DNA of 64,000 nt from Bacillota bacterium (GTDB lineage: Bacteria > Bacillota > Sulfobacillia > DUSP01 > JBFMCS01): assembly GCA_040754315.1 (NCBI GenBank), contig JBFMCS010000032.1:1-64000 (forward strand), in the 5' to 3' direction. The notes beneath the pieces are model-generated. The model had not been told where the DNA came from. It did not search any database and was given only the letters and a program-made list of their open reading frames with translations. Of the stretch, positions 1 through 53,260 are shown in pieces; position 1 is the first letter of the stretch, and each line of letters opens with the position of its first letter. The position numbers and the translations under genes were made by a program.

Positions 1-1
1 G

Positions 2-37
2 ATCAAATACAGCTTCGACAAGACTACGGCCATGTGA
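2..37 (+). CDS. possible 3' end of an upstream gene (partial)
   Basis: The first bases can be read as the last codons of a gene that begins before the window. The frame from base 2 to a TGA at 35-37 has high GC at third positions, as in the genes around it. A second open frame from base 1 ends with TAA at 46-48 but has poorer codon use. A hairpin with a T-rich tail follows at 66-112, which suits the end of a transcription unit. The product cannot be named. Confidence 0.25.
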   Translation: MKYSFDKTTAM

Positions 38-65
38 CTACGTTTTAATACCTCAGCAGTACCGC

Positions 66-112
66 AAAATCTCCTGTAACCGCAACGGTTTCGGGAGATT
101 TTGCCCCTTTTA
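66..112 (+). terminator. rho-independent terminator
   Basis: A long stem pairs AAAATCTCC (66-74) with GGAGATTTT (94-102). An inner stem, AACCG/CGGTT, closes the loop. A pyrimidine-rich tail with four T follows. It separates whatever lies upstream from the regulator gene that starts near 174. Confidence 0.7.
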
Positions 113-116
113 TCTG

Positions 117-146
117 TTAAACTCGGGGCGGCTCTTTATCTATTAT
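117..146 (+). promoter_or_regulatory. candidate sigma-A promoter of the sigma-54 activator gene
   Basis: TTAAAC (117-122) and TATTAT (141-146) are 18 bases apart in a locally AT-rich stretch directly after a terminator and about 28 bases before the ATG at 174. The match is fair, not perfect, and position is the main support. Confidence 0.35.
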
Positions 147-173
147 CCCACATATCTGCAACAAGGCCTAAAC

Positions 174-2093
174 ATGCTAAAATACTTGCAACGGGAGCAG
201 CCTAAGCTGTTGGTGCTCCCTTCAGTCCTGGTGTTTCGGTCGTCCCACATTGTGTTCCCATCTCACGGAATAGTACTTACAGAGGCAGGCGGGTTCAAGG
301 TGAAGATCCGCGAGATAACTGACAGGCAAAAAGAAACCATCAAATGGGACCAGACCCTTCAAGATGCCGCTTCGCTCTTCGGGAGGATACGGTGGGTCAA
401 CGAGATTCCCGTTGTTGATCAACAGGGCCGCTTGAAAGGGGTGATAAGGCGAGAAGACGTGCTTGAGGCTGTGGCCAAGGGCTGTCACCCTACGACCCCT
501 GCTATTGATGCCCTAAAGCGCACTTCCAACATTGTTTCGGAAGAGGATGACGTCAACCCTGCCCTGATCTTTTCCGGCCCAGAGAGCTGTTGGGTGTATG
601 ATTCCAACAAACGCCTCGTAGGCAAGCTGAACGTCAGTAAGGTTGACTCCCTTGTGGTGGAACAGAGACTTCCCCTCATGGGCCAGCAGGGCAGCATTGC
701 CCGGGAGATTGACCTGGCAGACCTGGTAGCCATCGAGAACCAACCGCTCTTTTCCGCCATCCTCGAATCCTCCTATGACGGGATATACATCACAGACGGG
801 CATGGGATTACACTCTACTGCAACAGCGCATGGGAACAAACGACGGGGCTGCCGAGGGAGAGAATGCTGGGTCGGGACGTTCGGGAAATGCAGTTTGAGG
901 GGATGTACTCCAAGAGCGTAACCCTGATTGTGCTGGAGCAGAGGGTTCCGGTGACTATCTTTCAGGAGTACGTGACCGGCCGGCAGGCCCTTACCACCGG
1001 CAACCCCGTCTTCAGTAAGAGCGGTGACATCGTGAGGGTGGTCTCGAACGTCCGAGACATTTCCGGGCTCCTCCACCTTAGGAGGGAACTTGAGGCCACC
1101 AGGGCGCTGTATGACCGTTCTCGGTCAGAGCTCTCTGAGATGACCCGGCAGCAGATGGAGTCCACTCACCTTGTGGCCAGGAGCAAGTCCTTTCAGCGCG
1201 TCCTGGAGATGGCCTCCAAGGCGGCCCATTTTGACACCACCGTCTTCCTCACAGGAGAGTCAGGGGTGGGCAAAGACGTGGTTGCCAGGTACATTCACAC
1301 CCACAGCGCCCGCCGGGAGAACCCTATGATCCACGTGAACTGTGCTGCCATTCCACCCTCACTTGTGGAATCGGAGCTCTTCGGTTACGTCAAGGGTTCC
1401 TTCACGGGAGCTGATAACAGGGGCAAGCCAGGGATGTTCGAGCTTGCGGATGGGGGCACCATCTTCCTGGATGAGATAACAGACCTGCCTCTGCAGGTGC
1501 AAGGGAAGCTCCTCCGCGCAATACAGGACAAAGAGGTCTACCGAGTCGGTGATCGCCGTCCCACCAGGTTTGATACGGGCATTATCGCTGCCTCCAACAA
1601 GGATGTAAAGGTAGAGATCAAGGAGGGTCGCTTCAGGGAGGACCTCTTCTTCCGGCTGAACGTCTTCCCCATAAGGATACCCCCCCTCCGCGAGAGGCTC
1701 GAAGACATACCCACCCTCGCCTTCCACTTCATCCGGCGCCACAACGAGAAGCATAGAACCCAAAAGATCCTGGCGGCTTGTACCATCGACGCATTCCTGG
1801 CCTATTCCTGGCCTGGTAATGTGAGGGAACTAGAGAACCTGGTGGAGTACCTGTTCATCACCTTGCCGGGGAATGAGATTGCCGTCCGTTCCGTGCCTCC
1901 AGACCCCGAGCCAGGCTTAGCCCTGGAATCTCCCGTCCGGGATGGGAGCCTCAAGGATGCGTGCTCCCGGTATGAGAAAGCGGTTATAGCGGCCGCTCTG
2001 GAAAGGCACGCTTCATTGAGACAGGCGGCCAAGGCCTTAAACCTCAATCCCTCCACCCTTCTTAGGAAGGCGCGGCGGCACGGGCTCTTCTAG
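174..2093 (+). CDS. sigma-54-dependent transcriptional activator (CBS-PAS-AAA-Fis HTH)
   Basis: This is a bacterial enhancer-binding protein that opens sigma-54 promoters using ATP. Residues ~43-160 look like a CBS pair. Residues ~192-300 are a PAS sensor domain. Residues ~335-560 are the AAA+ domain, with Walker A GESGVGKD (~360), the sigma-54 contact loop GSFTGA (~408, Ser for the usual Ala) and Walker B GGTIFLDE. A Fis-type helix-turn-helix closes the protein (~595-639). The conserved part begins around FKVKIREIT, so a GTG at 300 in the same frame is an alternative start; the first 42 residues are not clearly conserved. A perfect -24/-12 promoter lies 142 bases downstream, before the symporter operon, so that operon is the likely target. 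The ligand is unknown; hydantoinase-type genes in the target operon suggest a cyclic amide or amino-acid derivative. Confidence 0.92.
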   Translation: MLKYLQREQPKLLVLPSVLVFRSSHIVFPSHGIVLTEAGGFKVKIREITDRQKETIKWDQTLQDAASLFGRIRWVNEIPVVDQQGRLKGVIRREDVLEAVAKGCHPTTPAIDALKRTSNIVSEEDDVNPALIFSGPESCWVYDSNKRLVGKLNVSKVDSLVVEQRLPLMGQQGSIAREIDLADLVAIENQPLFSAILESSYDGIYITDGHGITLYCNSAWEQTTGLPRERMLGRDVREMQFEGMYSKSVTLIVLEQRVPVTIFQEYVTGRQALTTGNPVFSKSGDIVRVVSNVRDISGLLHLRRELEATRALYDRSRSELSEMTRQQMESTHLVARSKSFQRVLEMASKAAHFDTTVFLTGESGVGKDVVARYIHTHSARRENPMIHVNCAAIPPSLVESELFGYVKGSFTGADNRGKPGMFELADGGTIFLDEITDLPLQVQGKLLRAIQDKEVYRVGDRRPTRFDTGIIAASNKDVKVEIKEGRFREDLFFRLNVFPIRIPPLRERLEDIPTLAFHFIRRHNEKHRTQKILAACTIDAFLAYSWPGNVRELENLVEYLFITLPGNEIAVRSVPPDPEPGLALESPVRDGSLKDACSRYEKAVIAAALERHASLRQAAKALNLNPSTLLRKARRHGLF

Positions 2094-2121
2094 TCTAAGC
2101 CGTTGCCTATGGACAACACCC

Positions 2122-2201
2122 CTTGGGGCCTCTGTTGCCAGTGGGTAACACCTTTGCCCGCCACGAATTCCCTCTCTCGTCTATGAGCATAGGCCCCAAA
2201 G
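2122..2201 (+). promoter_or_regulatory. candidate enhancer (UAS) inverted repeat for the sigma-54 activator
   Basis: CTTGGGGCCT at 2122-2131 and AGGCCCCAAAG at 2191-2201 are inverted copies lying 35-114 bases upstream of the sigma-54 promoter. Enhancer-binding proteins usually bind paired palindromic sites 80-200 bases upstream, so the placement is reasonable but the nearer arm is close. This is inference from position and symmetry only. Confidence 0.25.
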
Positions 2202-2235
2202 CCTTTCTTGCCCCCGTTGGGGTCTCTCCGCGCTC

Positions 2236-2251
2236 TGGCACGGGGATTGCA
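2236..2251 (+). promoter_or_regulatory. sigma-54 (-24/-12) promoter
   Basis: TGGCAC (2236-2241), five bases, then TTGCA (2247-2251) is an exact match to the sigma-54 consensus, with the invariant GG and GC at the right spacing. Transcription should start near 2263, upstream of the small ORF at 2295 and the symporter at 2450. The gene immediately upstream encodes a sigma-54 activator, so regulator, promoter and target sit together. Confidence 0.88.
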
Positions 2252-2294
2252 AAAGGGTATTCCCTAAGCCAAGTCGGGAAAGGGGGTGGCGGCA

Positions 2295-2426
2295 ATGACG
2301 GAGTTCCATGAGGATCCCATGGACACGGTGGCGGCGCCAGCACGTGTCCTGATAGGCGCATGGCTAGGTTTATTCCTGGTCTACCTTTTATACTTCAAAA
2401 TCTGGAGCTGGCTTCTCGGAGGCTAG
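2295..2426 (+). CDS. 43-residue single-span membrane peptide, possible symporter accessory subunit
   Basis: This short ORF has a purine-rich ribosome site (GAAAGGGGG) before its ATG and lies between the sigma-54 promoter and the symporter gene, 23 bases before the latter. The peptide has an acidic N-terminus, then one hydrophobic helix (~residues 17-41, rich in Leu, Tyr, Phe and Trp), and ends in GG. Small one-span proteins encoded just upstream of sodium:solute symporters are a known arrangement and may help assembly or function. I recognise no specific family, so the role is inferred from position. It is expressed with the symporter if the promoter call is right. Confidence 0.6.
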   Translation: MTEFHEDPMDTVAAPARVLIGAWLGLFLVYLLYFKIWSWLLGG

Positions 2427-2449
2427 CGCAAGAAGGAGGTGCCAGAAGA

Positions 2450-3871
2450 ATGAACGCCGAGTATCTCGTGTTCGTTGTCATCTATTTCGCTGCTATGCTT
2501 GGGATAGGTATCTGGGTATCTCGAAGGGTTAAGGGAGGGGATGACTACATCCTGGCGGGCCGGAAGGTACCCTTTTGGCTAGTAGTGGGCGGCATTGTTG
2601 CCACCTGGGTCAACTCGGCGACCCTGATGGGATATGGCGGCATGGGCTACTCCGTGGGCATCGCAGGTTACTGGTCTGGCGGTGCCTTCATGCTCATGTG
2701 CACCTGGATGGGTTGGTGGATGATACCTCGGCTAAGGCGAACCGGCATCGTGACCATCCCCGAGCTCTTCGAAAGGTACTTCGGGGTTAACCACCGGATC
2801 GTGGCCGTTCTGCTCGTGATCGGAAGGGACCTGGGAGTCACTGCTGGCATTTCCATCGCTATGGCCATGATGTTCCAGTTCATGTTCGGTGTCAGCCTGG
2901 TGACGGCTCTCGCAATAACCCTCGCCGTGGTGCTGGTCTACACGCTCCTGGGCGGCATGTGGGCGGTCATGTACACTGATCTTGTCCAGTCCATCATCAT
3001 CCTGATCGGCACGGTACTCGTCATCCCGCTGGCCGTCTCCGCACTGGGTGGGTGGAGCGCCATGACATCGGCGATACCGGCGACCCACTCCCAGATCATG
3101 AATGCCGGAATCCCACAATCCGCAGGGTGGTTTCTGACGGGGGTCCTCATAACCGCGGCGTACCAGACCATAATTCAACGGGGACTCGCCGCGGAGAGCG
3201 ACGAAACCGCCAAGAAGGCCTTCTTGTACGGGGGCCTTATAACGATAGTCTGGTACATGGTACCCTTTGTCATCGGAACCCTGGGTCGTACTCTTTACCC
3301 GGATGTGGCGGCAGGGGACATCTACCTGCACATGATTACACACCTGAAGGGACCCATCTGGGGCGCCTTCTTCTTCACAGCGCTCCTAGCCTCTTGCATG
3401 TCGACAGTGGACTCTTGTGTGCTTACGGTCAGTTCCAACCTGGCCAATGACATCTACAAGAGACTGGTTAACCCCAAGATCAGCGAGCAAGGCCTCATCA
3501 CCGTCCAGAGGGTATGTGTGGTAGTAGTGGCGGTGGCAGCCGTCGTGATAGGCCGGACCCTGCCCATGGTCCTCGAGCTCTTCTGGGTGGGCGGCAGGAT
3601 AATGGCGGCGGCGCTTGCCCCCGTGCTGATCGCCCTGGTATTCTGGCCCAAGGCGCGCCGGTGCCGGGTTACCACCATGGCCGCCATGCTGATGGGCTCC
3701 GGGTTCACTGTGTACCAGCAATTCTTTGGGGCCAAGTACGAAGCGGGCACGGCTTTCCTCTGGAGAATGGATCCCATACTAATGGGTTTCCCCATCGCCA
3801 CAGCGGTTCTCATCATAGGAGTGCTGCTGGAAACCCGAAGGTTGGATAAACGCTACTCTCATCCAGCGTGA
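2450..3871 (+). CDS. sodium:solute symporter (SSS family)
   Basis: This 473-residue, highly hydrophobic protein has about 13 membrane segments and belongs to the SSS/SLC5 family (LeuT fold), which uses the sodium gradient to import solutes such as proline, pantothenate or carboxylates. The start is the ATG at 2450 behind a perfect AAGGAGGT ribosome site; the reading frame is open further upstream but without such a site. An early segment holds the motif GGIVATWVNSATLMGYGG, a family hallmark near the sodium site. It follows a sigma-54 promoter and precedes hydantoinase-type genes, so its substrate is probably the compound those enzymes hydrolyse. The substrate itself cannot be read from sequence. 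Confidence 0.9.
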   Translation: MNAEYLVFVVIYFAAMLGIGIWVSRRVKGGDDYILAGRKVPFWLVVGGIVATWVNSATLMGYGGMGYSVGIAGYWSGGAFMLMCTWMGWWMIPRLRRTGIVTIPELFERYFGVNHRIVAVLLVIGRDLGVTAGISIAMAMMFQFMFGVSLVTALAITLAVVLVYTLLGGMWAVMYTDLVQSIIILIGTVLVIPLAVSALGGWSAMTSAIPATHSQIMNAGIPQSAGWFLTGVLITAAYQTIIQRGLAAESDETAKKAFLYGGLITIVWYMVPFVIGTLGRTLYPDVAAGDIYLHMITHLKGPIWGAFFFTALLASCMSTVDSCVLTVSSNLANDIYKRLVNPKISEQGLITVQRVCVVVVAVAAVVIGRTLPMVLELFWVGGRIMAAALAPVLIALVFWPKARRCRVTTMAAMLMGSGFTVYQQFFGAKYEAGTAFLWRMDPILMGFPIATAVLIIGVLLETRRLDKRYSHPA

Positions 3872-3878
3872 AATCAAG

Positions 3879-3905
3879 CAAGGGGCGGCCCGGGGTCGCC
3901 CCTTG
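3879..3905 (+). promoter_or_regulatory. intergenic hairpin between symporter and hyuA
   Basis: CAAGGGGCG (3879-3887) pairs with CGCCCCTTG (3897-3905), a perfect nine-base GC-rich stem right after the symporter stop. No T-run follows, so it is more likely an mRNA stabiliser or partial terminator that sets the ratio of transporter to enzymes than a full terminator. Confidence 0.5.
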
Positions 3906-3945
3906 CCCACTTCTCATTGTCGTCCTCATGATAGGAGAGATGAAA

Positions 3946-6006
3946 GTGCCCTATAGACTTGGAGTGGACACTGGAGGCACCTTCACGGACATCGCCGTGG
4001 TGGCTGAGGGGAGTGGTGATCTTCATGTAGCCAAGATACCATCGACTCCCGCCAACCCATCCAGGGCAGTGCTGGAGGGCTTGAAAGAGGTCCTTGGGAG
4101 TCTTGGCCTTGATCCCAAGGAGATCTCGTTTTTCATCCACGGCACCACTGTCGCGACCAACGCCCTTCTGGAACACAGGGGTGCGAAGACTGCGCTTATC
4201 ACTACCCAGGGTTTCCGGGACGTGCTCCACATAGGGCGCCAGAACCGGCCAAAGCTCTACGATTTCTGGGCCCGGCGAGCCGAGCCGCTGGTACCGCGAA
4301 GCCTCAGGTTCGAGGTGGGGGAGAGAACCCTCCACGATGGCTCCATCCTTACGTCCCTCGACCAGGAAGAGGTCCGAATGAAGGCCCGTGAGCTCAAGGA
4401 ACAAGGGGTTGAGTCCGTGGCGGTCTGCCTGTTGAATGCCTTCGCCAACCCTGGCCACGAGACACTTATCGGTCGGGTTCTTAACGACGAAATGCCGGGC
4501 ACCTTCATCACGCTTTCCTCTGAGGTGCTGCCGGAGTTCAGGGAGTACGAGAGAATGTCCACGGTGGTCATCAATGCCTACGTGATGCCGCGAGTGGCCA
4601 CCTACGTTCAAGACCTCAGGACCAATTTGGCGGGGCTCGGGCTGGCTTCGGACCTCTACATAATGCAATCGAATGGGGGTGTTATCACAGCACCCGAGGC
4701 GAAAAAGGTGAGTGCCCGCACAGTGCTTTCAGGTCCGGCCGGTGGCGTGCTGGCGGGTCTTTTCGTCAGCCGCCTATGCCAGAGACCGAATGTGATAACC
4801 GTTGACATGGGTGGAACCAGCCTTGACGTATCCCTAATCCACCAGGGAAAGCTACTGGTTACCACGGAAGGGGAAATCGGCGGGTATCCTATGAAGCTCC
4901 CGATGATAGAGATCAACACCATCGGTGCGGGAGGGGGAAGTGTTGCCTGGATAGACCAAGGGGGAGCCCTGAGGGTCGGCCCGCACAGCGCTGGCGCCGA
5001 GCCCGGGCCCGTCTGCTACGGCCAGGGTGGCCAGGCGGTTACCGTAACTGACGCCAACGTAGTGCTAGGAAGACTGAATCCCGAATACCTGCTGGGCGGC
5101 CGCATGCCCCTGGAGAGGGCTCTAGCCTTCCGGGCCGTGGAAAGCCAGATCGCCGCACCTGCGGGAATGACCCCATTGCAGGCGGCCGAGGGAATCATTA
5201 GGGTGGTCAACGCCAACATGGTAAGGGGCATAAGGGTCGTCTCCGTTGAGAAGGGATATGATGTCAGGCAGTTCTCACTGGTAGTCTTCGGTGGGGCGGG
5301 CCCGGTGCACGGGGCCCAGCTGGCTCAGGAGCTGGGCATACCCGAGGTAATCGTGCCTCCCCACCCGGGTGTCACCTCCGCCATGGGCATGCTAGTGGCT
5401 GATGTCCGCCATGACTTCGTACGCACGGTGGTAGGGAAGGTGGAATCGCTTTCTGCCTCGGACCTTCGGTCAGAGTACCAGGGGTTGGAAGGCCAGGCGC
5501 GTGCCCAACTGGAGAGAGAGGGCTTCAGGGGGAGTGATATGCAGCTGCTGATGAGCGCCGACACCAGGTATGCGGGGCAGGCCTATGAGCTGAACGTGCC
5601 CATCAGCCGATCGATCTTGGAAGAGGGCTCCCTTCAGGAGATGGCCTCTCTGCATCACGGGTCTCACCAGCGGCAGTACGGGTACAGCCTCCCCAGGGAA
5701 CCGGTGGAACTGGTCAACCTGCGTCTAACCGCCTTCGGGAGGCTTCCGGAGTTCCAAGTGACAGGCCACCGCCGTAGGCTGAAGGAGGAAAAGGTGGGTT
5801 CTGGGGAGAGAAAGGTCATCTTTGACGGGGAGGAGATCATGGTTCCGGTGTTCCCGAGGGATCATATCGATGCGGGGTACTTCCTGAGAGGGCCTGCTAT
5901 CATAGAACAGATGGATTCTACAATCGTGGTGTTCCCGGGCCAATGGGCTGCCTCTGACCAACACGGCAATCTAGTGATTAGACAAGGCGAGGAGGCTGCT
6001 CAATGA
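3946..6006 (+). CDS. hyuA: hydantoinase/oxoprolinase family protein, subunit A
   Basis: This is a HyuA-type subunit of the ATP-dependent hydantoinase / 5-oxoprolinase / acetone carboxylase superfamily. The N-terminus has the phosphate-binding motif GVDTGGTFTD, typical of the actin-like ATPase fold, and a second ASKHA-like block near VDMGGTSLDVS. With HyuB it would open a cyclic amide such as N-methylhydantoin or 5-oxoproline, or carboxylate a ketone, at the cost of ATP. I chose the GTG at 3946 because AGGAG (3933-3937) is eight bases before it; the ATG at 3940 is only two bases from that site. The length (686 residues) is normal. It overlaps hyuB by four bases (ATGA), showing coupled translation. 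The exact substrate is not determined by sequence. Confidence 0.88.
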   Translation: MPYRLGVDTGGTFTDIAVVAEGSGDLHVAKIPSTPANPSRAVLEGLKEVLGSLGLDPKEISFFIHGTTVATNALLEHRGAKTALITTQGFRDVLHIGRQNRPKLYDFWARRAEPLVPRSLRFEVGERTLHDGSILTSLDQEEVRMKARELKEQGVESVAVCLLNAFANPGHETLIGRVLNDEMPGTFITLSSEVLPEFREYERMSTVVINAYVMPRVATYVQDLRTNLAGLGLASDLYIMQSNGGVITAPEAKKVSARTVLSGPAGGVLAGLFVSRLCQRPNVITVDMGGTSLDVSLIHQGKLLVTTEGEIGGYPMKLPMIEINTIGAGGGSVAWIDQGGALRVGPHSAGAEPGPVCYGQGGQAVTVTDANVVLGRLNPEYLLGGRMPLERALAFRAVESQIAAPAGMTPLQAAEGIIRVVNANMVRGIRVVSVEKGYDVRQFSLVVFGGAGPVHGAQLAQELGIPEVIVPPHPGVTSAMGMLVADVRHDFVRTVVGKVESLSASDLRSEYQGLEGQARAQLEREGFRGSDMQLLMSADTRYAGQAYELNVPISRSILEEGSLQEMASLHHGSHQRQYGYSLPREPVELVNLRLTAFGRLPEFQVTGHRRRLKEEKVGSGERKVIFDGEEIMVPVFPRDHIDAGYFLRGPAIIEQMDSTIVVFPGQWAASDQHGNLVIRQGEEAAQ

Positions 6007-7763
6007 GCATTGACCCAGTTACACTCGAGGTCATGAGGAACGCCTTCCAGTCTGTAGCGGAAGAGATGGGGGCAGCCCTGATAAGGACGGCACTCTCTAC
6101 CAACATTAAAGACAGGAGGGACTGTTCCACTGCTATTTATACGCCGGAAGGCTCCCTCGTCGCTCAGGCGGAGCACATTCCCCTTCACCTCGGGCTCATG
6201 CCCACTGTCGTCAAAGAAGTGCTCCGGCGGCATCCCCCCGAGAGGCTGGGTCCGGGCGACGCCGTGATAATAAACGACCCGTACATAAGTGGGTCTCACC
6301 TTCCCGACATATGCATGATAACCCCGGTCTACAAAGAAGGAACACTTGTCGCCCTCCTGGCCAACCTGGCTCACCATGTGGACATAGGCGGCATTTCGCC
6401 AGGAGGAATGCCCGCCAGTTCCAGCGAGATCTTTCAGGAGGGTTTGAGGATTCCCCCTATCAAGCTGCGGGAGGGGGGAGAGGTGAAAGAAGAGATCCTG
6501 AACCTCATATCCAGCAACGTCAGGACCAGCCAGGAGACCAGAGGCGATTTCCAGGCTCAGATGGCGGCGAACAATGTGGGTGAGAGGCGAGTTCTCGAGA
6601 TAGTGGACCGGTACGGAGCCAGCCAGGTGCTCCGTTACATGGAGGAGATCATCAACTATTCGGAGCGGAGAATGCTGGCCATGCTGGAGCAGCTTCCTCG
6701 AGGGACCTACAGGTTTGAGGACTACCTCGAGGGGGATGGGTTTTCGGATGACCTCATCCCAATTAAGGTGGCTGTGACGATAGAGGGAGGGAACGTCCAC
6801 GTAGATTTCACGGGTACCAGCCCGCAGGTGAAGGGCTCCGTGAATTGTACTCGCGCTGTCACCCTTGCCAGTGTTTATTACGCCATCAAGTGCGTGGCCG
6901 ACCCTGACCTCCCTTCTAGCGAAGGAAGCTACAAGCCTGTGAAGGTGACCACCCCTGAAGGCACCCTGGTGAACCCTCGCTTCCCGGCAGCAGTATCCAA
7001 CGCCAACATCAATACCGCGCAGCGCATAGCTGATGTGGTGCTGGGAGCTCTTGCCCTGGCGGTGCCGGAAAGGGTGACAGCTGCCTCTACAGGGAGCATG
7101 AGCCTCTTTACTATCGGGGGGCTGGTGCCGGGGACCAATACCTACTTCTCCTATGTGGAGACCTATGGAGGCGGGCAGGGGGCCCTGTGGGATCAGGATG
7201 GTATGGATGGCGTTCATACCAACATGACCAACACCAGGAACGCCCCCACGGAAGTGATCGAAATGACCTACCCGTTGCGAGTGGAACGTTACGGCTTGGT
7301 GCCTGATTCAGAAGGCCCGGGTGCCTTCAGGGGAGGCCTCGGGCTCACCAGGGAGATCGTGGTCCTGGGAGAAGAGACGGGAATAACCCTAAGCACGGAA
7401 CGGAGAAAGACTAGACCGTGGGGACTACAAGGAGGGAAGCCGGGAGAAGGTTCCGAGTGCTGGCTGGTGCAGGGAAGAGAGAGGATACTACCCACTAAGA
7501 TCACTACTACCGTTTCCTCAGGAAGCAAGCTAATCTTGAAAACTGCAGGTGGGGGAGGTTACGGTGACCCCCTCAGGAGGGATCCGAAGTCAGTCCTGTG
7601 GGACGTGAGAGAGGGGTTAATATCCTCCGAAAGGGCTCGGGAGCGTTATGGTGTGGCTGTGAATACGGAAACCTGGACAGTCATGGAAGAAGAAACCGCA
7701 AGGTTGAGAACCAAAAGCAGCCATCCTATGAATGACGGTGCGCGTCCAGGACCGATGATCTGA
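6003..7763 (+). CDS. hyuB: hydantoinase B/oxoprolinase family protein
   Basis: This is the partner subunit of the preceding HyuA-like protein. Residues from the N-terminus (DPVTLEVMRNAF) through the block NDPYISGSHLPDI match HyuB, and the C-terminal third carries the conserved GGGGYGDP glycine-rich motif. Its ATG overlaps the hyuA stop, so the two are translated as a pair. The length (586 residues) is usual. Family members differ in substrate (5-oxoproline, hydantoins, acetone or acetophenone), and sequence alone does not choose between them. The neighbouring symporter and sigma-54 regulator suggest an inducible catabolic unit that imports and hydrolyses one compound as a nitrogen or carbon source. 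Confidence 0.88.
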   Translation: MSIDPVTLEVMRNAFQSVAEEMGAALIRTALSTNIKDRRDCSTAIYTPEGSLVAQAEHIPLHLGLMPTVVKEVLRRHPPERLGPGDAVIINDPYISGSHLPDICMITPVYKEGTLVALLANLAHHVDIGGISPGGMPASSSEIFQEGLRIPPIKLREGGEVKEEILNLISSNVRTSQETRGDFQAQMAANNVGERRVLEIVDRYGASQVLRYMEEIINYSERRMLAMLEQLPRGTYRFEDYLEGDGFSDDLIPIKVAVTIEGGNVHVDFTGTSPQVKGSVNCTRAVTLASVYYAIKCVADPDLPSSEGSYKPVKVTTPEGTLVNPRFPAAVSNANINTAQRIADVVLGALALAVPERVTAASTGSMSLFTIGGLVPGTNTYFSYVETYGGGQGALWDQDGMDGVHTNMTNTRNAPTEVIEMTYPLRVERYGLVPDSEGPGAFRGGLGLTREIVVLGEETGITLSTERRKTRPWGLQGGKPGEGSECWLVQGRERILPTKITTTVSSGSKLILKTAGGGGYGDPLRRDPKSVLWDVREGLISSERARERYGVAVNTETWTVMEEETARLRTKSSHPMNDGARPGPMI

Positions 7764-8304
7764 ACCGGGTCGCGGGGCGGTCATGCCAGAGCGTATCTGG
7801 CGGCTAATCTAAACCCAGAATTCGCTCCTCGGTGCTCGGCAGGGGTGAGTGCTGGGCTGAGAGGCCTATAAGAGCAGGTGGCTAAAATGCCAAGCGAAAG
7901 CCAGGTCCCTGATGCACAGTGGACCCTCCCACATGGTATCCACCCCAGTTGCCGGTTAAGCACCAGCATCTGAATAAAAACCTAAGAAAAGCCATGACTG
8001 TTCAGCCTTGGATGTCTGGATACAATACGACAAAGAAGAGAAAACCCTTGTGGTCAGTGGGAATAGAGAGTCTTCCCAGAAGCCGCCAGGGACTACCTGG
8101 GAAAAACCGGGCATGGGGGGAGCGAGTGATTTTACGAATGAATTGCGGTAAGGTGATTGAAAAGGCGGCTTCTAGGAACAGCCAGGGCCTTGAGCGGGTG
8201 CGCACCACAAAAATGAGTATAGGGCAACAATGCCCCCATCATGCCGGGCGTGTAGAGGATGCATTCAGTTTCGCAGGCGGTCTACCGAGTAGCAGGGTAA
8301 GGAT
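7764..8304. other. gene-poor stretch after hyuB
   Basis: No gene can be supported here. A small stem (GCCAGA 7785-7790 with TCTGGC 7796-7801) follows hyuB but has no T-run. Open frames present are unlike any family I know and have no ribosome sites. The stretch leads into recognisable transposase and methylase remnants and is probably decayed mobile DNA. Confidence 0.5.
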
Positions 8305-8520
8305 GGAGGGATGGTGTTCATTGCGATGAGGTGGGTGTGCCAGGCCCAGGCCCTGATACTCCTTAAGATGAAGCGTTCGATTTCGCGGCCTATCTTGACG
8401 TGCTTGAAGCAGCGTTCCGAGGAGGTGCGGAGGGCATAGGTTTTCTTTTGCCGGGCAGATCCCCCCCGGGGTACTGTTGAAAAGGCGCGGGTCCTCGATG
8501 GGCTTGGTGTGCATGGTCCT
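8305..8520 (-). mobile_element. transposase remnant (DDE-type, C-terminal part)
   Basis: On the minus strand, two frames together give the tail of an insertion-sequence transposase. One frame has TKPIEDPRLFN. The next has YALRTSSERCFKHVKI followed by an arginine-rich segment ending in HTHLIAMN. That order (DPRLF, then R(T/R)SxER, then a basic helix) is characteristic of a common DDE transposase group. A frameshift separates the halves and no start remains, so it is a fossil. Terminal repeats could not be seen. Confidence 0.55.
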
Positions 8521-8640
8521 CTGTCGCCTCCCCTCTATATAGGGATTTAGCAGGTTAATGCAACCCCCCGCGGCGAGGAGCTGGAAATCGTGCGTGGCCG
8601 TGTGGCCGCTTAGGGGTAAACCCCGGTTCTCCGGCCCAAG

Positions 8641-9171
8641 ATCATCGTCTTCGCCGCGTTTCAGTTCGACCGGACGCGGCAAAGGACATTGACGAAACCC
8701 ATTGGCCGGGTGTCACCCTGCTGAAAGCAACAGATGAATGCCGACCTCTTGACCGATGACCTGGAGGAAAAAACGGGCCAGCAACGAGTTCTTCTGGCTG
8801 ATGGCCACCCGGACGTGGCAGTGGAGCGCCTCCCGGATGGCTAATACCGCCTATCGGTGCACGGCTTCGACTACTATAACACCAAGACCGGTCGCATCGA
8901 ACCGGGTGGCGCGGACTAGATCGCCGTCTGGCTGCTGGATACCGATTACAACGGGCGTAGTCTGTATCTACGCCAGGTGTTCTTCCCGATGGCCGGGGAG
9001 AAGGAAGGGTGGGCACGGCTGGCGAAGAGCCTCAAGGCCGAAATCGACGAGGAGTTGCTGGAGGTCTACCGGGGGACGGTCTCGCTCCCCTTCGCGCCGG
9101 GAGATCACAAGCGCATCGCCGTCAAGATCGTGGACGACCGGGGCATGATCTTAAAGGTGGTGAGAAGTTAG
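8641..9171 (+). pseudogene. remnant of type III restriction-modification methylase (Mod), C-terminal part
   Basis: Pieces in shifting frames match the C-terminal region of adenine-specific methylases of type III systems: NADLLTDDLEEK, then a block with VHGFDYYNTKTGRIEPGGAD, then [20 protein letters not shown] and [11 protein letters not shown]. The last block is open to the TAG at 9169-9171, but in-frame stops occur before YRLSVHGFDYY and after EPGGAD, and the first part needs a frameshift. The catalytic half with the DPPY motif is absent. It lies in the normal position before a matching nuclease remnant (9809 on). Confidence 0.75.
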
Positions 9172-9173
9172 CA

Positions 9174-9479
9174 ATGAATCCAAGTCTAACAGTTTCCCGC
9201 GAGAGTATTGCTGAGTTCTGCTTGGAACACGGCATCCGGCGGTTAGCAATCTTTGGCTCTGCGCTGCGTGGTGATTTTCGCCCGGATAGCGATATAGACG
9301 TTCTGGTAGAATTCGTGCCTGATCGTATACCCGGCCTCCTGGGGATAGCCCGTTTGGAAAGAGAACTGTCGCTTCTCTTTAACGGGCGCAAGGTAGACTT
9401 GCACACGCCGGAGGATCTGAGCCGGTATTTTCGGCAAAGTGTGATCGAGGAAGCTGAGGTGCAGTATGCGCAAGAGTGA
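9174..9479 (+). CDS. MNT-type nucleotidyltransferase (MntA-like antitoxin)
   Basis: This 101-residue protein belongs to the minimal nucleotidyltransferase family. The motif [20 protein letters not shown] carries the GSxxxG and DxD catalytic signature. In the characterised MntA-HepT systems the MNT protein adds AMP to the HEPN toxin and silences it. The ATG at 9174 follows the methylase remnant by three bases, and the gene overlaps the HEPN gene by 14 bases, the standard arrangement of the module. The gene is intact while its partner is broken, so it is either an orphan antitoxin or drifting. Confidence 0.85.
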
Positions 9480-9809
9480 GGCCATTCGTTTACGGCATAT
9501 GCTGGATGCGGCCTAGGAGGCCATAACCTTTATCCAGGGGCGGGACCGCAGCGATCTTGACACCGACCGTCAGCTTGCCCTGTCGTTGGTGAAGAAGTGG
9601 AAATAACCAGCGAAGCCGCTTACCGGTTATCGCCGGAAACGCGAGAGAACCTGCCTGAAATACCATGGGAAGACATCATCGGTATGCGCCACCGGCTGGT
9701 ACACGCTTACTTTGACATTAACCTTGACATCCTGTGGCAGACCATCCGGGAGGACCTGCCTGCTTTGGTTTCACTCTTGAGTTCTGCGATGTCAGTGGAG
9801 GAATCTTGA
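9466..9809 (+). pseudogene. broken HEPN-domain toxin (DUF86/HepT-like)
   Basis: Reading from the ATG at 9466 gives the start of a HEPN protein ([16 protein letters not shown]) but meets TAG at 9514-9516. A single-base loss near 9591-9597 then throws the frame; restoring one G would join LALSLVKEVEITSEAAYR. The last part (to 9809) keeps the RNase-type motif RHRLVH in GMRHRLVHAYFDIN. One nonsense change and one frameshift therefore disable a toxin whose active-site region is still conserved. It overlaps the intact MNT gene upstream, and its stop overlaps the ATG of the nuclease remnant. Confidence 0.8.
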
Positions 9810-10868
9810 TGGCCAGAACAACCATCGACCGGCTGATCATCAACTTGCCCTACGATGAACCGGCAAGGCACTGGTGCTGCGAGCGCGAGACGCGGACCTT
9901 CGACCTGGTGGAGGTCCGCGGCCCGGCGGGCTACGTGGTGGCCTCGGGCGACTCCAAGGCTTAACGATCCCGGCATTTTTGTGGAACCCGCTGGTTAACC
10001 AGGTCCACCCGCGCGTAAGAGCCTGGCGCAAGGCAGGCTACCCCGGCGTCACCGGCACCACCGAGCGGTTACTGGAGCACTGGCGCGACCCGGAGGAGTT
10101 CGAAAGCCGACGCTTCTTCTTCCGCTAGAGGCGGTGGAAACGCTGATGTGGCTGAGCGAGTCGCGCCGGGCCGGCCGCGTTGGAATCGAGATTCTCGGCG
10201 ACGGCGGAGAGTTTACACGCCAATGCTGCAAGATGGCCACCGGCTCGGGCAAGACCACCGTCATGGCCATGGTGGTCACCTGGCACATCCTGAACCAGGT
10301 TACTTATCCGCAGTTCGACAAAACGTGCTGGGTGATTGCACCCAGGCTCGCAGTGAAGAGCTGGCTGGCGATGCTGGAACCCGCCGGTATCGGCAATTAC
10401 TACGAGGCATTCAACATCGTACCCCCGGCCCAGGACAAGCTACGCCAGGGCAAGGTGCTGGTGCGCAGCTGGCACGCGCTGGCCTGGGGCAGCGAGGAGC
10501 AGATCAAAAAACGGCGCAGCGTGGACACGCGTGACGCCAAGAGCATTGAGGCTATACCTAAATACCTGCGCAGCCGGGATATGAAAGACAGCGCCGGGGG
10601 GGCCACGGTCTGGATCTGTGCGCTGGACCAGCTGCGCCGTTCGCGGGGCATCCTCACCTGCTACGACTCTTCCGCTATGCCCTTCACACCGCCGGGCAAA
10701 AAGAGCAGCGAGGAGGCGCTCTTCGGCTGGATCGCCAGCGACTTCGGCCTGAACGACGCCATCGAGCAGACTTGGTCAAGACCCCGCGTAGTGGTGCGCG
10801 ACGACGCCGTGCCCGGCGAATCAAAGAAAGAAACGGCGCTTGGGAAGCGCCGTGATGGTGCAGCCTGA
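9809..10868 (+). pseudogene. remnant of type III restriction endonuclease (Res, helicase N-terminal part)
   Basis: Three successive frames give the start of a DEAD/DEAH-type restriction nuclease. They are MARTTIDRLIINLPYDEPARH up to a TAA at 9962, then NPLVNQVHPRVRAWRKAGYPG up to a TAG at 10126, then ETLMWLSE followed by the Walker A block MATGSGKTTVMAM and WVIAPRLAVKSWL. The match fades after VVVRDDAVP (~10815). The rest of the helicase and the nuclease domain are missing. At least two frameshifts and a 3' truncation make it non-functional. With the methylase remnant upstream it shows that a type III system once lay here, with the MNT/HEPN pair between its subunits. Confidence 0.78.
10826..10853 (-). 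terminator. rho-independent terminator of the CofE-like gene
   Basis: ACGGCGCTT (10833-10841) pairs perfectly with AAGCGCCGT (10845-10853) around a three-base loop. On the minus strand the stem is followed by a T-rich tail (TTTCTTTCTTT), so it ends transcripts coming from the minus-strand gene at 10943-12493. On the plus strand there is no T-run. Confidence 0.75.
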
Positions 10869-53044: not shown

Positions 53045-53260
53045 GTTCAGGAGTATCTAGACAAAGGCCGAGATGTCCTTCTTTTGCCTCTCAGGGAGGC
53101 ACCGGTAGCGGCGCCACATTGAGACGGTAGAAGAGGTCCTCCCTGAACTGGCTCGCTCTTACCATCCTCTCCAGGTCGCTTTAGTGGCTGCCACGACCCG
53201 TGTGTCCACGTACATTGCATTGGCCCTTCCTTGCCCAGTATACCAGCGTCGGGCGCGTTC
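53045..53260 (-). pseudogene. remnant of a sigma-54 activator (AAA+ domain fragment)
   Basis: Minus-strand frames give, in order, DTRVVAATK, then MVRASQFREDLFYRLNVAPL with PVPP, then a shifted piece corresponding to RERQKDI. This is the well-known R-V-(V/I)-A-A-T ... F-R-x-D-L-(F/Y)-Y-R-L-N-V block near the end of the sigma-54 AAA+ domain. At least two frame changes and stops interrupt it and nothing else of the gene is recognised. It is a second, dead member of the family whose live member lies at 174-2093. Confidence 0.65.

Follow-up and report, generated by a model that had tools for sequence, protein, structure and literature searches.

The first 7.8 kb of contig C32 raise the question of whether a regulator, a transporter and an enzyme encoded side by side work as a single inducible unit. 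The contig belongs to a 2.92 Mb genome of 65 contigs, and the stretch analysed here (the window) comprises its first 64,000 nucleotides. All on the plus strand, genes for a sigma-54 activator, a tiny membrane peptide, a sodium:solute symporter (SSS) and a HyuA–HyuB pair follow one another, and Pfam domains together with an exact sigma-54 site place every element of the original prediction in the order it had given. At the sequence level, the parts, their order, the promoter and the conserved catalytic residues are all present. The unit is a well-formed, ordinary bacterial catabolic operon, one more case of a known type. We consider it probable (roughly 75%) that the whole, with the activator, the symporter and its peptide, and HyuAB, is a one-component sigma-54 catabolic circuit.

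The activator gene occupies positions 300 to 2093 on the plus strand. The GTG at 300 is the more likely start codon: relatives in three loci (L108, L109 and L110) begin exactly there, and the alternative at 174 is thus probably too far upstream. Pfam assigns CBS, PAS, Sigma54_activat and HTH_50/Fis domains to the protein, and its full arrangement reads as a first CBS repeat, a degenerate second one, PAS, AAA+ and the C-terminal helix-turn-helix. The AAA+ domain (PF00158, 219 bits) carries a GESGVGK Walker A motif and a GSFTGA loop, as in sigma-54 enhancer-binding proteins (EBPs). GSFTGA is an accepted variant of the GAFTGA-type loop (PMC6615313). The C-terminal domain is of the Fis/TyrR type, with HTH_50 (43 bits) and HTH_8 (24.8 bits) both above cut-off.

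Downstream of the activator lies the predicted exact TGGCAC-N5-TTGCA promoter, at positions 2236 to 2251 on the plus strand. This site, TGGCAC-GGGGA-TTGCA, matches the sigma-54 pattern exactly and is alone in the window in doing so, where shuffled sequence would give 0.03 such matches; when two mismatches are allowed, the pattern performs no better than chance. A transcript start near position 2262 would be expected, consistent with spacing from the -12 element. Other scans of the DNA gave little: sigma-70-like promoters and terminators in window positions 1 to 10000 occur near chance level, and an Rfam search of the window returned no match.

The 142 bases that separate the activator stop codon from the sigma-54 site also contain two inverted repeats that the original prediction had missed and that are positioned like activator sites. 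Candidate site 1 (CGTTGCCTATGGACAACA, positions 2101 to 2118, no strand assigned) is an imperfect repeat with the same arms as candidate site 2 (TGTTGCCAGTGGGTAACA, positions 2133 to 2150, no strand assigned), which has the form TGT-N12-ACA. The two are set 32 bp apart, about three helical turns. Site 1 precedes the sigma-54 site by about 118 bp, and the centers of sites 1 and 2 lie approximately 127 and 95 bases upstream of the promoter. Site 2 fits the TGT-N10-12-ACA type, which is the published site form for PrdR and for a further fourteen Clostridiales groups; most published activator sites lie 100–250 bases upstream of the promoter (PMC6615313). Shuffling the 142-base stretch 2000 times produced an equally good inverted-repeat pair once, and 4 of 900 segments of the window, sampled in overlapping steps that may include the locus itself, contained one. 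Both figures are descriptive, since the scoring scheme was devised with the pair already known. The locus is of interest as a compact, probably inducible cassette and as an example of how such bacteria pack activator, activator sites and sigma-54 promoter into one short gap.

The same layout recurs across the genome, which encodes a single rpoN and, counting proteins whose AAA+ domain is substantial, 22 activators. Exact sigma-54 sites number 11 genome-wide, versus two for a reversed control pattern. A sigma-54-like site on the same strand, within 300 bp past the activator stop, follows 7 of the 22 activators, and four of these seven sites are exact, compared with 0.012 expected from genome-wide density. 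By these counts, the window unit is one instance of a local house design. Inverted repeats appear in comparable gaps: two copies of a GGTGCG-N4-CGCACC-kind repeat follow the C16 activator, and TGATGACGAGCGTCATCA follows the C3 activator. The single rpoN, the intact AAA+ motifs with GSFTGA, the exact promoter, the UAS-like pair and the recurring layout together give good support to the proposal of a self-contained sigma-54 circuit.

Some further activator-related features were observed by the way. At L123 (G000:C52), an activator at 7025–8985 has a sigma-54-like site on either side, of which the one upstream is divergent and points at an MttB-like gene; a proline-racemase-like gene was named there by eye from its sequence. 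Several MttB (trimethylamine methyltransferase)-like genes were likewise noted by eye near sigma-54-like sites at L121, L123, L130 and L136, all in the same genome. On the minus strand of the window, positions 53106 to 53180 encode a 25-residue remnant of the Sigma54_activat end within a 29-amino-acid frame, possibly a decayed activator.

An N-terminal CBS pair combined with PAS had been called uncommon, which our survey contradicts: 3 of the 22 activators in this genome match CBS, CBS and PAS occur together in 5/5 activator relatives fetched from other genomes, and the best-scoring named family is PrdR (372 bits, versus an NCBIfam equivalog cut-off of 795). CBS activators also appear among Clostridiales EBPs (PMC6615313). 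At L109 and L110, in other genomes of the phylum, a CBS-PAS activator adjoins genes that resemble CoA-transferase subunits, as named from sequence, and this neighborhood is recurrent. The same kind of activator thus stands beside unrelated genes in relatives, and its neighborhood does not fix its ligand.

Of the CBS pair, Pfam finds the first repeat and misses the degenerate second one. Weak matches to the solved structures of AMPK gamma and Ta0289 span both halves, which makes a CBS fold likely. These matches, and a recognizable first repeat with the usual Asp, are what favors the suggestion that AMP/ATP binding by the CBS region gates the PAS-controlled activator and ties induction to energy charge. 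Against it, the T/S-x-x-D/N ribose-contact signature is incomplete: GVIRREDV in the first repeat retains the Asp alone and GKLNVSKV in the second lacks both positions. An AlphaFold model of the N-terminal region alone, predicted from a single sequence, was unusable (pLDDT 33). CBS pairs are also known with other ligands, or with none. With the second repeat degenerate, the link to energy state that the original prediction had raised is speculative and unsupported, and we regard an energy sensor here as quite unlikely.

The first frame downstream of the promoter (positions 2295 to 2426, plus strand) encodes 43 amino acids with a single transmembrane helix at approximately residues 18–35 and is preceded by a purine-rich stretch, which makes it a candidate small partner of the symporter. 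Small membrane partners of SSS transporters include DUF485 with ActP and DUF997 with PanF, and one such partner in this genome is a DUF3311 protein. The peptide matched no family in Pfam or NCBIfam, including DUF3311, DUF485 and DUF997. Its homologue search in 398 genomes gave chance-level matches alone, and none of those checked adjoins a detectable SSS gene. The missing family match and the lack of a convincing homologue would suit a different reading, in which the frame is part of a leader rather than a gene and some 190 bases of untranslated RNA lie ahead of the symporter. The frame nevertheless has a hydrophobic helix and a plausible ribosome site, and it ends 23 bases before the symporter start. 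Small transmembrane frames are, moreover, far commoner before SSS genes than before other genes: within this genome, one with a ribosome-site-like stretch directly precedes 4 of 11 SSS genes, compared with 5 of 191 other genes (Fisher p = 0.0005, a descriptive figure because the thresholds were set after the first cases had been seen). With slightly looser settings, such a frame precedes 10 of 28 SSS loci in this and other, nearly all related, genomes. We therefore consider a leader unlikely and favor a translated peptide. That the peptide is an undescribed, essential single-helix SSS subunit, one of a broad unannotated set before SSS genes in the phylum, is a tentative idea that we hold to be possible but doubtful. 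Tiny membrane peptides recurring before symporter genes are the part of this locus most worth following, because annotation usually overlooks genes of this kind.

One further SSS gene, at L150 (G000:C56:14000-22000; gene at C56:17306-18532, minus strand), contains three in-frame TAG codons and no other stop inside its domain, and is thus either a pseudogene or a gene in which TAG is read. It too is preceded by a short transmembrane frame.

The symporter gene spans positions 2450 to 3871 on the plus strand and encodes 473 amino acids. Its start is 2450 and not 2360, with an AAGGAGG ribosome site ahead, and the protein belongs to the SSS family (PF00474, SSF, 146.7 bits versus a cut-off of 22.8). 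At a threshold of 1e-60, no relative was found in 154 genomes of the class or 398 of the phylum; the best is a paralogue at 32% identity. The absence of a close SSS relative in the sampled phylum means that the symporter substrate cannot be inferred.

The operon ends with hyuA (positions 3940 to 6006) and hyuB (6003 to 7763), both on the plus strand, with the hyuB start overlapping the hyuA stop by four bases. HyuA most likely begins near 3940 and not at the mechanically called GTG at 3868. Pfam identifies Hydantoinase_A with its N and C domains in HyuA, the ATPase subunit of an ATP-dependent hydantoinase/lactamase type, and Hydantoinase_B in HyuB, the metal-site subunit. For both proteins the closest structures are an N-methylhydantoinase (7hk5) and 6yra, listed as 5-oxoprolinase/hydantoinase. 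We take the latter to be the P. jessenii caprolactamase CapAB, consistent with chain lengths 696 and 581. Caprolactamase requires CapA D11 and D295 and CapB D41, H99, D102 and H124 (PMC8453981). HyuA keeps both ATP-site Asp residues and HyuB keeps D40, H99, D102 and H124, as judged by motif and position rather than structure. The two Pfam domains, the ATP-site Asp residues and the metal tetrad place the pair in the hydantoinase/oxoprolinase superfamily, and HyuAB is most likely an enzyme that opens cyclic amides.

The same superfamily includes acetone and acetophenone carboxylases, and matches to acetophenone carboxylase subunits raise the possibility that HyuAB instead drives ATP-dependent ketone carboxylation, making this an operon for ketone use. 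HyuA scores 291 bits in that comparison, however, versus 625 for caprolactamase (NCBIfam CapA) and 527 for N-methylhydantoinase; a third subunit is not encoded, and HyuB has Asp where acetone carboxylase has Glu. A carboxylase is very unlikely on these grounds. For the cyclic-amide enzyme, close hyuAB pairs occur in five other genomes (HyuA 51–55% and HyuB 58–62% identical), and no such activator or symporter was found near those five pairs. The combination in the window thus looks locally assembled, and the functional link among HyuAB, symporter and activator rests on one genome because the closest pairs elsewhere stand alone. Elsewhere in this genome, within the stretches read, the other HyuB copies likewise lie away from any such activator. 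A literature search found no paper describing a hyuAB–SSS–sigma-54 unit. The proposal that the unit serves inducible use of one compound is a reasonable reading. Past the operon, window positions 9150 to 9809 contain frames that, judged by eye, may be a toxin–antitoxin pair, one like a minimal nucleotidyltransferase and one like its HEPN partner.

The circuit could then operate as follows, with the ligand, activator sites, transport partner and substrate class each inferred. The activator would bind the two tandem sites between 2101 and 2150 as dimers. An intracellular ligand sensed by the PAS region, and perhaps by the CBS region, would lead the AAA+ ring to assemble and drive open-complex formation by sigma-54 RNA polymerase at 2236–2251. 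A single transcript would encode the peptide, the symporter and HyuA–HyuB; the peptide may assist the symporter, which would bring in substrate together with sodium. HyuA–HyuB would spend ATP on the ring opening of a cyclic amide (a lactam, oxoproline or hydantoin, for example), probably via a phosphorylated intermediate handed to the HyuB metal site.

Among known regulators, the activator is closest to PrdR and, more generally, to the CBS-PAS sigma-54 activators found in Clostridia, which it resembles in its architecture, helix-turn-helix type, TGT-N-ACA type site and adjoining controlled operon. It falls below the PrdR cut-off, however, its second CBS repeat is degenerate, and its neighbors are SSS and hyuAB genes rather than the proline reductase genes of a prd operon, which sets it outside PrdR proper. 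Like SSS transporters with small partners (DUF3311, DUF485, DUF997), the symporter has a short transmembrane protein gene directly before its own, but the window peptide has one helix and no match among the described families. HyuAB shares with CapAB (6yra) and N-methylhydantoinase (7hk5) a two-part organization, the ATP-site Asp residues and an Asp-His-Asp-His metal site, whereas scores of 625 (HyuA) and 347 bits (HyuB) against NCBIfam cut-offs of 1000 distinguish it from the caprolactamases themselves.
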